A stretch of 44,289 bases of DNA, from assembly GCA_024276425.1 (NCBI GenBank), contig JAJRXF010000094.1, positions 67,152 through 111,440 on the forward strand, in the 5' to 3' direction. Position 1 is the stretch's first letter, and each line of letters starts with the position of its first letter. This stretch comes from Actinomycetes bacterium (GTDB taxonomy: Bacteria > Actinomycetota > Acidimicrobiia > Acidimicrobiales > SZUA-35). Made by a program: the position numbers and the translations under genes. Of the stretch, positions 6,583 through 11,423 are shown piece after piece. Under the pieces are notes generated by a model. It searched no databases. It saw nothing but the letters and a program-made list of their open reading frames with translations, and had not been told where the DNA came from.

Positions 6583-6632
6583 CCTTCAGTCTCAATCCTT
6601 CAGTCTCAATCCTTCAGTCTCAAACCTTCAGG
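6583..6632. repeat. 14-bp tandem repeat, about 3.5 copies
   Basis: The unit ccttcagtctcaat is repeated at 6583-6596, 6597-6610 and 6611-6624 (last base changed), followed by a partial copy. It fills the gap between two convergent genes and runs into the last codons of lipBA. Confidence 0.9.
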
Positions 6633-8397
6633 CCGGGCCCCTCAGGAGGATCTCGGGCCTGGCCGCCCGAAGTGCCGCCGCCGCATGGTGACTAGATCTT
6701 GTCAAAGGGCTAGCCTCAATGTGGACGATCCCTAGTTCGGACTCGCCTATTGTCTTCAACGCGTCGAACTCATCCGGGGTCCACCACCGGTGAACCGGCA
6801 CGTGATGAGTCGTCGGCCGTAGATACTGACCAATGGTGACAATGTCCACACCCAACGCCGCCAGGTCGCTCAACGTGGCAACAACCTCATCGAACCCTTC
6901 GCCCATACCAACAATCAAACCGGACTTGGTGATCAAGTTCGCCCGCTTAGCCCGGGCCAGGACAGCCAAACTTCGGGCGTATCCGGCGGAAGGCCGCACC
7001 GCACGCTGAAGTCGAGGAACCGTCTCTATATTGTGGTTCAGCACATCGGGGTGCGACTCGATGATCACCTGCAAGCTTGCTGCCTGGCCGTTCAGATCAG
7101 AGATGAGAACCTCAACGCCCGTCCCCGGGGACTCTGTTCGAACCGCCTCAATAGTGCGAGCAACGAGACTGGCACCTCCGTCAGCAAGATCGTCGCGAGC
7201 CACCATGGTCAAGACCACGAAATCTAGCCCTAGCTCGGCAATCACCTGAGCAATTCGGTCAGGTTCTTGGTTGTCAACTGCTCCAGGCTTACGCGTGTCA
7301 ACGAGACAGAAGCCGCAAGCGCGAGTGCATCGATTCCCCAACAGCATGTAGGTTGCCGTACCTTCATTCCAGCACTCAAAAATGTTCGGGCAGCCAGCTT
7401 CTTCACATACCGTGGCCAGGTTGAGACGCCGTGAACGTTGTTGGAGCTCACGGAACTTCGGTTCAGTTTTCAGCTTGACCCGCATCCAGTCTGGTTTAGG
7501 AGCACGAACGTCAAGCCCACCATGGACGCCAGCCGAAGCGAGACGACCTCCCAGCCGGACAGAAACCCCACTGCCAGGAGTTGTCGAGCGAGCAACCTCT
7601 GCTTGGTCCGGAGCGCGACTCCGTTCCGGTTTGATGGGCTCACCCGGGCCCTCGCCCCGCGAAAACGCTGAGAGGTCAGAGTCGACCTGTCGCCAGGCAA
7701 CATCTTGTCTGGTGGCGAGTCCTCCCCCACTCAAAACTTTTGTCGCGTGGCTCGCTACCAGATTCACGACCTCTTCCATCGTTGCGCTAACACCCTCGTT
7801 GCGGAGTGAAGTAACGCCCTTGTCCGCAATGCCACACGGGATCATATGAGCAAACCAATCCAGGTCAACATCGACGTTCAAGGAGAACCCGTGCATGGAT
7901 CGACCGCGACTCAAACGGACACCGATAGCGGCGATTTTTCGGGCATTCGGCCCGTCGTGGTCAAGCCAGACTCCCGGTTGTTCGGGCAGCCGATCGGCCT
8001 GCAGGCCCAGGTCAGCGAGGGCCGAGATGATGATCTCTTCAACCGAACGCACATAGGCAAGCGTGTCTGCCATTCCTCCACCACGATGGCCCGGAACGTT
8101 CATGATCGGATAGCCCACAAGTTGACCTGGACCGTGAAAGGTAACGTCACCGCCCCGATCGGCTTTGAACACTTGGGCGCCAACGGATTCCGGGTGAACC
8201 AGTAGGTGCTCAGGTTTGGCCCTGACCCCCATGGTGTAGACGGGTGGATGCTCAAGAAGAAGCAAGTGATTGCTCCGACCAGTAAACAGTTGCCTCTGAA
8301 GGTCGAGAGACTCCTCATAGGGAACGCGACCAAGCCAACGCACATGGAGCGGACTGTCCCCTTGTTCTCGCCTGGCTCTGGGCGATGTCCCGATCAC
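6628..8397 (-). CDS. lipBA: Fused octanoyltransferase-lipoyl synthase (LipB-LipA)
   Basis: Single 589-residue polypeptide with both steps of lipoyl cofactor synthesis. The N-terminal LipB half (about 18-225) moves octanoate from acyl carrier protein to E2. It shows RGGDVTFHGPGQ (81-92), the catalytic Lys154 in RKIAAIGV and Cys188 in MIPCGI. A low-complexity linker (about 225-300) follows. The C-terminal LipA half inserts two sulphurs. It shows Cys331/336/342 for the auxiliary 4Fe-4S cluster, CTRACGFC (357-364) for the radical-SAM cluster and RSSHHA (567-572). The frame is unbroken. The start is GTG 8397, 10 nt after the E2 stop and preceded by GGACAGC. Both enzymes are normally separate proteins. 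It lies directly behind the E2 gene it should modify. Confidence 0.93.
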   Translation of the reverse strand: MIGTSPRARREQGDSPLHVRWLGRVPYEESLDLQRQLFTGRSNHLLLLEHPPVYTMGVRAKPEHLLVHPESVGAQVFKADRGGDVTFHGPGQLVGYPIMNVPGHRGGGMADTLAYVRSVEEIIISALADLGLQADRLPEQPGVWLDHDGPNARKIAAIGVRLSRGRSMHGFSLNVDVDLDWFAHMIPCGIADKGVTSLRNEGVSATMEEVVNLVASHATKVLSGGGLATRQDVAWRQVDSDLSAFSRGEGPGEPIKPERSRAPDQAEVARSTTPGSGVSVRLGGRLASAGVHGGLDVRAPKPDWMRVKLKTEPKFRELQQRSRRLNLATVCEEAGCPNIFECWNEGTATYMLLGNRCTRACGFCLVDTRKPGAVDNQEPDRIAQVIAELGLDFVVLTMVARDDLADGGASLVARTIEAVRTESPGTGVEVLISDLNGQAASLQVIIESHPDVLNHNIETVPRLQRAVRPSAGYARSLAVLARAKRANLITKSGLIVGMGEGFDEVVATLSDLAALGVDIVTIGQYLRPTTHHVPVHRWWTPDEFDALKTIGESELGIVHIEASPLTRSSHHAAAALRAARPEILLRGPA

Positions 8398-8407
8398 GGC
8401 TGCTGTC

Positions 8408-9937
8408 CTAAGCCAATTCAGTGGACCAATCGCGGGTCTCGATAATCTCGCGAACCCTGGCCAAGAATGCGGCCGCGTAGGCTCCGTCGATAGCCCGATG
8501 GTCCCACGCCATAGCCAGGACCCCAACCGAGTGAATGGCGATGCTTTCATTGCCGTAGGCATCACGAACGACGACTGGCTTTCGCTTCACCGCATCGGTT
8601 GACAAGATCGCAACCTGAGGCTGGTTGATGATGGGGAACTGCATCATGGTGCCATAACTCCCCGCATTGGTCAGCGTGAAGGTCCCTCCACTCATCTCGT
8701 CTGGCGACAGCTGTTTTGCCCGAGCTCGCCGCGCCACATCAGAAATATCTCGGGCAATGGCCCGCATGCGTTTACCGTCGGTATCGCGAACGACCGGAGC
8801 AAGCAGGCCCTGGAAGTCGAGGTCGACCGCAATGGCCATATTGATGTAGTTGTGCACAATGAGTTCTCCGTCGCCCACCGAAGCATTGAGGTGTGGGTAC
8901 TCACGGAGGGCATCGACCACTGCTCTGGTGATGAATGGCAAATATGTCAGGCTGAACCCTTCTTGTTCCTTAAAGGCGGCCCCGCTGGCCTTTCGAACCT
9001 GTTCGACTCCTTCGTAGTCGATCTCTACCGCCGTAAGTGTGTGAGGCGCCACCGTCTTGGACATGACCATATGCTCGCCGGTACGAAGACGGATCTTGGA
9101 GAGGGGAACAATAGTGTCCCGAGCACCGGCCTGAACCAGTGGGGCGGCCGAGGAAGCCACAGTTGGGACCGGAGCCGATGCCGCCGGGGCCGGAGAAGCG
9201 GGGGCCGGGGCCGGAGAAACGGGGGCCGGGGCCGGAGAAACGGGGGCCGGGGCCGGAGAAACGGTGGCCGGAGTTGGAGCAGGAGTCATGGGAGTGGCCG
9301 GGCTTGATACGGGAGCACTAGCAACTGAGGCTGGGGCCACTGTGACTGGTGGCGCAGCAATGGCTGACTCGTCGGCCAGAGGCTGAAGCTGGTTCGATTC
9401 AATGTGTCGCTGCACGTCATCGCGCGAAACTCTACCACCCAGCCCAGTACCTCGAATGTCAGCCGCGTCGATGCCGTAGTCATTGACAAGCCGTCGAACG
9501 ACAGGAGAAAGGACCTTGTTCCCGGCGCCGCCGATGGGGCTTGGTGCGGCAGGGGGTGCCTGTGGCACCGCTGCTACCGGTGCCGGAGCGGAAGCCACCG
9601 GCGCCGGAGAAGAAGCTGGGCTGTCTGGGGCTGGGGCAACTGGAGCGACAGCCGGCTCCGGCACTGGAGCGACAGCCGGCTCCGGAACTGGGGCGACAGC
9701 CGCACCATCACCAACAACGGCTAGTACGGTGCCCACCTCGACAGTTTCGCCCTCGGGAACCAAAATCTCACTCAGGGTTCCTGCGATAGGGGACGGGACT
9801 TCGGTATCAACCTTGTCGGTCGATACTTCAAAGAGGACCTCGTCTACCGCAATTGTCTCGCCGACCTCCTTGAACCATCGGGTAATGGTTCCCTCGGTCA
9901 CGGTCTCGCCCAGCTGGGGCATTTCGATCTCAGCCAC
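8408..9937 (-). CDS. sucB: 2-oxoacid dehydrogenase E2 (dihydrolipoamide acyltransferase)
   Basis: E2 core of a 2-oxoacid dehydrogenase; the lipoyl arm carries the acyl group from E1 to CoA. In order: one lipoyl domain (1-78) with Lys42 in STDKVDTEV; an Ala/Pro/Val linker; a peripheral-subunit-binding domain (about 140-180); a second Ala/Pro linker with PAPVSPA repeats; and the acyltransferase domain with His480 and Asp484 in MAWDHRAIDG. The sequence type is the SucB/DlaT kind, which in actinobacteria is known to serve the pyruvate complex as well. With aceE and lpd nearby, I infer use by pyruvate dehydrogenase. The ATG at 9937 gives the standard N-terminus. It is followed at once by lipBA. 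Confidence 0.93.
   Translation of the reverse strand: MAEIEMPQLGETVTEGTITRWFKEVGETIAVDEVLFEVSTDKVDTEVPSPIAGTLSEILVPEGETVEVGTVLAVVGDGAAVAPVPEPAVAPVPEPAVAPVAPAPDSPASSPAPVASAPAPVAAVPQAPPAAPSPIGGAGNKVLSPVVRRLVNDYGIDAADIRGTGLGGRVSRDDVQRHIESNQLQPLADESAIAAPPVTVAPASVASAPVSSPATPMTPAPTPATVSPAPAPVSPAPAPVSPAPAPASPAPAASAPVPTVASSAAPLVQAGARDTIVPLSKIRLRTGEHMVMSKTVAPHTLTAVEIDYEGVEQVRKASGAAFKEQEGFSLTYLPFITRAVVDALREYPHLNASVGDGELIVHNYINMAIAVDLDFQGLLAPVVRDTDGKRMRAIARDISDVARRARAKQLSPDEMSGGTFTLTNAGSYGTMMQFPIINQPQVAILSTDAVKRKPVVVRDAYGNESIAIHSVGVLAMAWDHRAIDGAYAAAFLARVREIIETRDWSTELA
9192..9269. repeat. In-frame 21-bp tandem repeat in the E2 linker
   Basis: Three complete 21-bp units (9192-9212, 9213-9233, 9234-9254; the first differs by one base) and a partial fourth encode the heptapeptide PAPVSPA. 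They form part of the flexible Ala/Pro linker between the subunit-binding and catalytic domains of E2. The unit length keeps the reading frame, so copy number can change without harm. Confidence 0.88.
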
Positions 9938-10016: not shown

Positions 10017-11423
10017 CTATCCGTGAAGCGACCGGCCGGTAAGAGCCATAACGCTCTCGCCAAACAACTCGCTTATTGTTGGATGAGGTTGAATAAACTG
10101 AGCGACCTCGGCGGCGGTAGCCTCCCAGTTAACAGCCAGGTAACCCTGACCGAGCTGCTCGGTGACCCAAGGTCCCACCAAGTGAACACCAAGAATTCGG
10201 CCGCCGTTCCCGTCGGGCAACTTCTCGGCAATAATTTTGACGAGTCCCTCGGTTTCGCCCACGATCATGGCCCTGGAATTACCGGCATAACGATGTTTGG
10301 ACACCACAATGTCAAAGCCCTGTTCTTTGGCCTGCTGCTCGGTGAGGCCAGCAAAGGCAACCTCTGGCTGACAGTAGATGCACCAGGGCAACTTGTCATA
10401 GGCAACCGGACGGGGATCCTCATCGAGGATGTCAGTGATGGCCACGATGGCCTCCATGAATCCTACATGAGCGAGTTGAGCGGTATCAATCACATCACCA
10501 ACGGCCCAGACACCGGGAACACCGGTGCGACAGTACTCATCGGTCTGGATAAACCCACGGTCATCGACCACGACCTGAGTCGCGTCCAAACCAAGGGTCT
10601 CAGAGAACGGCCGTCTGCCAATGGACACCACGACCGTCTCAGCGGTTACCGACTCGCCCTCGCCAAAAGACACCGTTACTCCGTCGGGTCCGGTGCTCTG
10701 ACCGGTCACCATCACCCCAGCTCGAACCACGATGCCACGCTTCTTGAAGCTGCGCTCAATAACCTTGATCAGGTCTCGGTCACAGTTGATGAGAATGCTC
10801 GGCGCCGCCTCCAAAATGGTGACCTTTGTTCCCAGGTCGCTCATCATCGATGCGAACTCTACTCCGATGGCTCCTCCACCGATTACTATCGCCGACTTGG
10901 GTAATGATGGGATCGAGAGCATCTCATCCGATGTCACGATCTGGCGAGAGTCGACTGGAAACCCGGGAATGGTCCGAGGGACGGAACCCGCTGCCAATAT
11001 GACTGAGTCGGCGGTAATGGTGACCTCACCGGAGGAGCCTCCCGAGATCGACACGGATCGGTGATCGGCCCCAAGACGGCCAGTACCATCAAAAATGGTG
11101 ACCTTGCGGTTCTTGAGCAACCCGGTAACACCGCCAACGAGCCGATCCACAATCGATTGCTTGCGGGCCATCGTTACCGACCAGTCGATCCCCTTGAGAT
11201 CGGCCAGGATTCCAAATTCACCAGAGTGAGAAACAACCCGTTGAATTGCGGCAGTCTCCAGTAGTTCTTTGGCCGGAATACAACCGACGTTGAGGCAGGT
11301 TCCGCCGAGCTTGTGTCGCTCGACCAGGGCAATGCTCAGGCCAGCGGATGCCCCGTACAGGGCAGCCCCGTAGCCAGCGGGACCGCCACCAATAATGATC
11401 ACATCGAACTGCTGGTTGGACAG
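10017..11423 (-). CDS. lpdA: Dihydrolipoyl dehydrogenase (E3)
   Basis: FAD disulfide oxidoreductase that reoxidises dihydrolipoyl groups of E2 with NAD+. It shows the FAD dinucleotide fold (FDVIIIGGGPAGYG), the redox-active pair in GGTCLNVGCIPAKELLE, the NAD-binding GGGAIGVEFA, the second FAD motif VWAVGDV and the C-terminal His-Glu pair in QPHPTISE. A GTG at 11402 would remove FDV from the first strand. An in-frame TGA lies a few codons farther up, and the only other start-like codons are CTG. CTG at 11423 has GGAGG 8 nt upstream and gives an ordinary N-terminus, so I use it (468 residues). It precedes sucB by 79 bp. Confidence 0.93.
   Translation of the reverse strand: MSNQQFDVIIIGGGPAGYGAALYGASAGLSIALVERHKLGGTCLNVGCIPAKELLETAAIQRVVSHSGEFGILADLKGIDWSVTMARKQSIVDRLVGGVTGLLKNRKVTIFDGTGRLGADHRSVSISGGSSGEVTITADSVILAAGSVPRTIPGFPVDSRQIVTSDEMLSIPSLPKSAIVIGGGAIGVEFASMMSDLGTKVTILEAAPSILINCDRDLIKVIERSFKKRGIVVRAGVMVTGQSTGPDGVTVSFGEGESVTAETVVVSIGRRPFSETLGLDATQVVVDDRGFIQTDEYCRTGVPGVWAVGDVIDTAQLAHVGFMEAIVAITDILDEDPRPVAYDKLPWCIYCQPEVAFAGLTEQQAKEQGFDIVVSKHRYAGNSRAMIVGETEGLVKIIAEKLPDGNGGRILGVHLVGPWVTEQLGQGYLAVNWEATAAEVAQFIQPHPTISELFGESVMALTGRSLHG

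Follow-up and report, generated by a model that had tools for sequence, protein, structure and literature searches.

A LipB–LipA fusion encoded behind an E2 gene and carried in one frame throughout the Acidimicrobiia loci read

We analysed a gene in the window (the whole stretch of DNA under study, 44,289 nucleotides) that encodes the octanoyltransferase LipB and the lipoyl synthase LipA as one uninterrupted polypeptide. It lies on the minus strand directly behind an E2 acyltransferase gene, the catalytic and cluster residues of both enzymes are intact, and the same architecture is the rule in the whole class Acidimicrobiia. Judged from its sequence, the product is very probably a bifunctional octanoyltransferase/lipoyl synthase that carries out ordinary LipB-then-LipA chemistry, with the two steps coupled by proximity, and that probably arose through one ancestral stop-loss fusion.

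Both enzymes in one open frame behind E2

LipB transfers the octanoyl group of octanoyl-ACP to the lipoyl lysine via a cysteine thioester, after which two sulfurs are inserted by LipA (PMC9307952). The original prediction had placed both enzymes, with their catalytic residues, in one unbroken frame, joined by a linker of about 75 residues and separated from the E2 gene by 10 nt. It was correct on each point and omitted only the strand. As can be seen from Table 1, the linker is 72 residues long; the gap to E2 spans 8398-8407, and the 589-residue frame, read from a GTG at 8397 to the stop codon at 6628-6630, contains no internal stop. Both domains score above the curated cut-offs of their families: the LipB half matches TIGR00214 with 152.9 bits (cut-off 83.55) and NF010925 with 199.1 bits (cut-off 155), both within residues 14-225, and the LipA half matches TIGR00510 with 336.7 bits (cut-off 310.25) over residues 300-576. 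Pfam places LplA-B_cat at residues 27-217 (5e-41) and Radical_SAM at residues 353-511. The nearest solved structure by sequence is M. tuberculosis LipA (5exi, E 1.2e-86), and M. tuberculosis LipB (1w66, E 1.8e-44) aligns to residues 15-224. The Lys-Cys dyad of LipB and both cysteine motifs of LipA, named in the prediction, are present and invariant in all 58 aligned fused proteins, as are Ser568 and Ser569 of the C-terminal RSS motif.

Table 1. Features of the fused gene and its neighbours (window coordinates)
Feature	Coordinates	Strand	Details
Fused lipB-lipA gene	6628..8397	minus	589 codons + stop, GTG start
LipB octanoyltransferase domain	7723..8355	minus	residues 15-225; NCBIfam match, PDB 1w66
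Lys154, LipB catalytic dyad	7936..7938	minus	58/58 aligned fused proteins
Cys188, LipB acyl-thioester cysteine (PCG motif)	7834..7836	minus	58/58
Linker	7507..7722	minus	residues 226-297, 72 residues; 20-90 residues in relatives
Conserved linker element DLSAFSRGEGPG	7642..7677	minus	residues 241-252; alignment of fused relatives
LipA lipoyl synthase domain	6658..7506	minus	residues 298-580; NCBIfam match, PDB 5exi
Cys331, Cys336, Cys342 (CX4CX5C), auxiliary [4Fe-4S] cluster	7372..7407	minus	58/58
Cys357, Cys361, Cys364 (CX3CX2C), radical-SAM cluster	7306..7329	minus	58/58
Arg567-Ser568-Ser569, C-terminal RSS motif of LipA	6691..6699	minus	invariant columns
E2 acyltransferase gene, one lipoyl domain	8408..9937	minus	nearest SucB_Actino, below cut-off
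Dihydrolipoamide dehydrogenase-like gene (flavoprotein disulfide reductase)	10017..11402	minus	further upstream of E2

We compared the window gene with that of a same-genus relative. The dN was 0.22 for LipB, 0.41 for the linker and 0.20 for LipA, and, because these values are low against a dS that is high or saturated, the LipB and LipA halves, and less strongly the linker, evolve as protein. Both halves are under purifying selection. The source genome, which is 96% complete, holds no further LipA or LipB; searched with the fused protein up to an E of 10, it yielded nothing besides the fused gene itself. Another of its contigs encodes a distant LplA-type protein of about 312 residues (L084; G000:C23:7910-8374), flanked by an MraZ-like and an HNH-like gene, which scores 16 bits against the LplAB model (cut-off 550). 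The space between the fused gene, at its convergent end, and its neighbour holds 3.5 copies of a 14-base tandem repeat, CCTTCAGTCTCAAT (window 6583-6631), which extends into the stop codon of the fused gene.

The neighbouring E2 consists of one lipoyl domain, an E3-binding domain and an acyltransferase domain, and scores 393.6 bits against SucB_Actino (cut-off 423.45). Its Ala/Pro-rich linkers are encoded by 21- and 24-base tandem repeats (window 9165-9271 and 9638-9702). The dehydrogenase-like gene beyond it probably encodes E3, judging from a CLNVGC motif and from its position. The gene order is conserved: of 75 class loci, 69 have E2 upstream on the same strand, and in 67 it is the immediate neighbour.

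Given this arrangement, the LipB half would load octanoyl from octanoyl-ACP onto Cys188, with the participation of Lys154, and transfer it from there to the lysine in the lipoyl domain of E2. On the same octanoyl-lysine, the LipA half, carrying two [4Fe-4S] clusters, would then use SAM to insert two sulfurs. Joining the enzymes would set their ratio at 1:1 and keep LipA beside the product of LipB. The likely client is the E2 of the neighbouring gene, on which one chain may carry out both steps.

Distribution and origin of the fusion

We read 151 loci with a LipA frame, 126 from Acidimicrobiia and 25 from other Actinomycetota. LipB and LipA share one frame in all 126 class loci, a count that includes the window's own gene twice (L001 and L083) and may count a few genomes twice under different names (the linkers of L002 and L074 are identical); none of the 25 loci outside the class carries the fusion. 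Similarity to the fusion was the route to 80 of the loci, and those drawn from even whole-genome samples, where they were ranked on match score or hand-picked, agree with them. Matches were found in 276 of 296 evenly drawn class genomes and in 145 of 149 genera, and the nearest relatives carry the titles Acidimicrobiia or Acidimicrobiales.

The assembly that contains the window is a draft of 203 contigs, in which two genes might have been joined artificially during assembly or binning. Such an artefact has a negligible probability and is refuted by the relatives, as the same open junction occurs in a same-genus genome (72% identity); it is open in one frame in every class locus read, across many independent assemblies, and is therefore not an assembly error. 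The fusion behind E2 that had been predicted is genuine; its implied rarity did not hold. The prediction would have been undercut by an architecture already common and described: common it is, and a literature search, thin on subscription journals, found no paper describing a LipB–LipA fusion.

Some class rows carried the flag '1 TGA'. The four that were read (L101 and L107-L109) have no stop between LipB and LipA, so the TGA is most likely located downstream of LipA. Long frames around LipA at loci outside the class (L125, L128 and L130-L133) had no LipB in frame. Outside Actinomycetota, where plasmid records only were covered, 3 of 214 had one place covering at least 80% of the query; the best rows were two joined pieces and, where annotated (H5 and H6), lipA and lipB are separate genes. 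Four assemblies titled Bifidobacterium breve or Ferrithrix thermotolerans (L041, L058, L075 and L079) also carry the fusion. Their titles look misassigned; the two that were placed in the tree, L058 and L075, cluster with records of Ilumatobacteraceae.

In 17 of the 25 loci from other Actinomycetota, lipB directly precedes lipA with a stop between them, and in these unfused pairs the LipB stop and the first LipA cluster motif are 110-306 bases apart. In the LipA tree a single branch parts fused from unfused rows (support 98/93). In the LipB tree the fused rows do not form one group and the best topology needs two changes; the AU test does not reject a single clade (p 0.32). The most likely and simplest account is that adjacent genes of one operon fused once, near the base of Acidimicrobiia, since the fused LipAs fall on one well-supported branch; two fusions are possible, because the fused rows do not come together in the LipB tree. 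By the single-fusion account, an ancestral E2-lipB-lipA order would have lost the stop between lipB and lipA near the class base, and the fusion would have been kept since.

The linker and coupling of the two steps

The linker ranges from 20 to 90 residues among the fused class loci (median 53). Its middle is hypervariable, with a mean majority fraction of 0.11 and 72% gaps at residues 261-270. The more conserved DLSAFSRGEGPG element on one side of it recurs in a loose form in 78 of 125 linkers; the unfused LipB tails read did not show it. This element, roughly (D)L(S/A)xF(S/T)RGxGxG across many fused proteins, could be a docking element. A second more conserved flanking element, RLGGRLASAGV (residues 281-291), corresponds in position to the N-terminal extension that mycobacterial LipA itself carries.

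We modelled the fused protein with AlphaFold2, using as input alignments of the window protein and the fused proteins of relatives. The predicted model matches 5exk_E with Z 42.4 (rmsd 1.9 over 300 residues) and 1w66 with Z 30.3 (rmsd 1.6 over 203 residues). The pTM was 0.91 for the window protein, with its 72-residue linker, and 0.92 for a relative with a linker of 20 residues (L063); in the window protein the middle of the linker had low predicted confidence. As a general expectation, two loosely tethered domains of such size would give a clearly lower pTM. Values above 0.9 in two members with very different linkers thus suggest a fixed arrangement of the LipB and LipA domains.

How far the fusion goes beyond making the two enzymes together can be weighed from these results. 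The chances seem about even that it only provides LipB and LipA in a 1:1 ratio, the domains acting independently and a neutral stop loss having been kept by descent. The two genes were neighbours before fusion, each domain resembles a stand-alone enzyme, and the linker drifts widely in length and sequence, all of which fits such a history; however, reversal to separate genes is seen in 0 of 126 class loci, and pTM is high in both models. At the other extreme, the protein might be a rigid two-site unit, in which a bound lipoyl domain moves from LipB to LipA without leaving, so that one encounter serves both steps. We regard this active hand-over as rather unlikely: it draws on the pTM obtained with both long and short linkers, on the class-wide retention of the fusion and on the recurrent linker element that is absent from the unfused LipB tails read, but pTM informs on domain placement and not on substrate transfer, and the linker varies strongly. 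Transfer of the octanoyl-E2 intermediate inside one protein, as suggested in the original prediction, is made more plausible by the class-wide retention and the pTM of 0.91-0.92.

It is very improbable that LipB and LipA exist as two chains in the cell, with LipA also made from an internal start or with the linker cut by a protease. A variable linker middle of low predicted confidence would suit such cleavage or restart. However, the linker is not enriched in start codons with Shine-Dalgarno-like sequences: they make up 12 of 7500 linker codons, against 42 of 18750 within LipB and 52 of 23703 within LipA. This argues against a separately started LipA, and no conserved start codon was seen. We favour the bifunctional enzyme with proximity-coupled steps, although its hypervariable linker middle offers no pointer to a precise hand-over path.

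Relation to known lipoate assembly enzymes

As the fusion shows, lipoate assembly allows its two de novo steps to be joined, and this joined state is retained across an entire class of widespread bacteria. It is a natural construct with which to ask whether the octanoyl-protein intermediate leaves between the LipB and LipA steps, and the covalent pair would be of use in structural work. If active hand-over is true, lipoate assembly would include a real substrate transfer that has become fixed throughout a class of bacteria. Annotation pipelines may label the fused protein as LipB only or as LipA only.

The fusion consists of known enzymes in a known order, here as a class-wide covalent pair, and is apparently undescribed; the passages on fusions in a 2023 survey of lipoate assembly (PMC10332631) concern LplA-LplB and not LipB-LipA. 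With M. tuberculosis LipB (1w66; TIGR00214 and NF010925) it shares the catalytic domain, the Lys-Cys dyad and the fold. The stand-alone LipB ends soon after this domain, whereas the fusion adds a C-terminal linker and a complete LipA. With M. tuberculosis LipA (5exi/5exk; TIGR00510) it shares both cluster motifs, the RSS motif and the fold, and the N-terminal extension of its LipA resembles the mycobacterial one, which, however, starts a protein instead of being joined to LipB. The bifunctional lipoate-protein ligase/lipoyl synthase LplA_LipA_fuse (NCBIfam NF053790) likewise has an acyl-attaching enzyme before LipA, but there the partner is an LplA-type ligase, and here it is LipB. The window protein falls outside that family, scoring 328.4 bits (cut-off 800) through its LipA part only (model positions 330-604). 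The adjacent lipB-lipA pair of other Actinomycetota has the same gene order and short spacing; there a stop codon between the genes yields two proteins, whereas the fusion is one.
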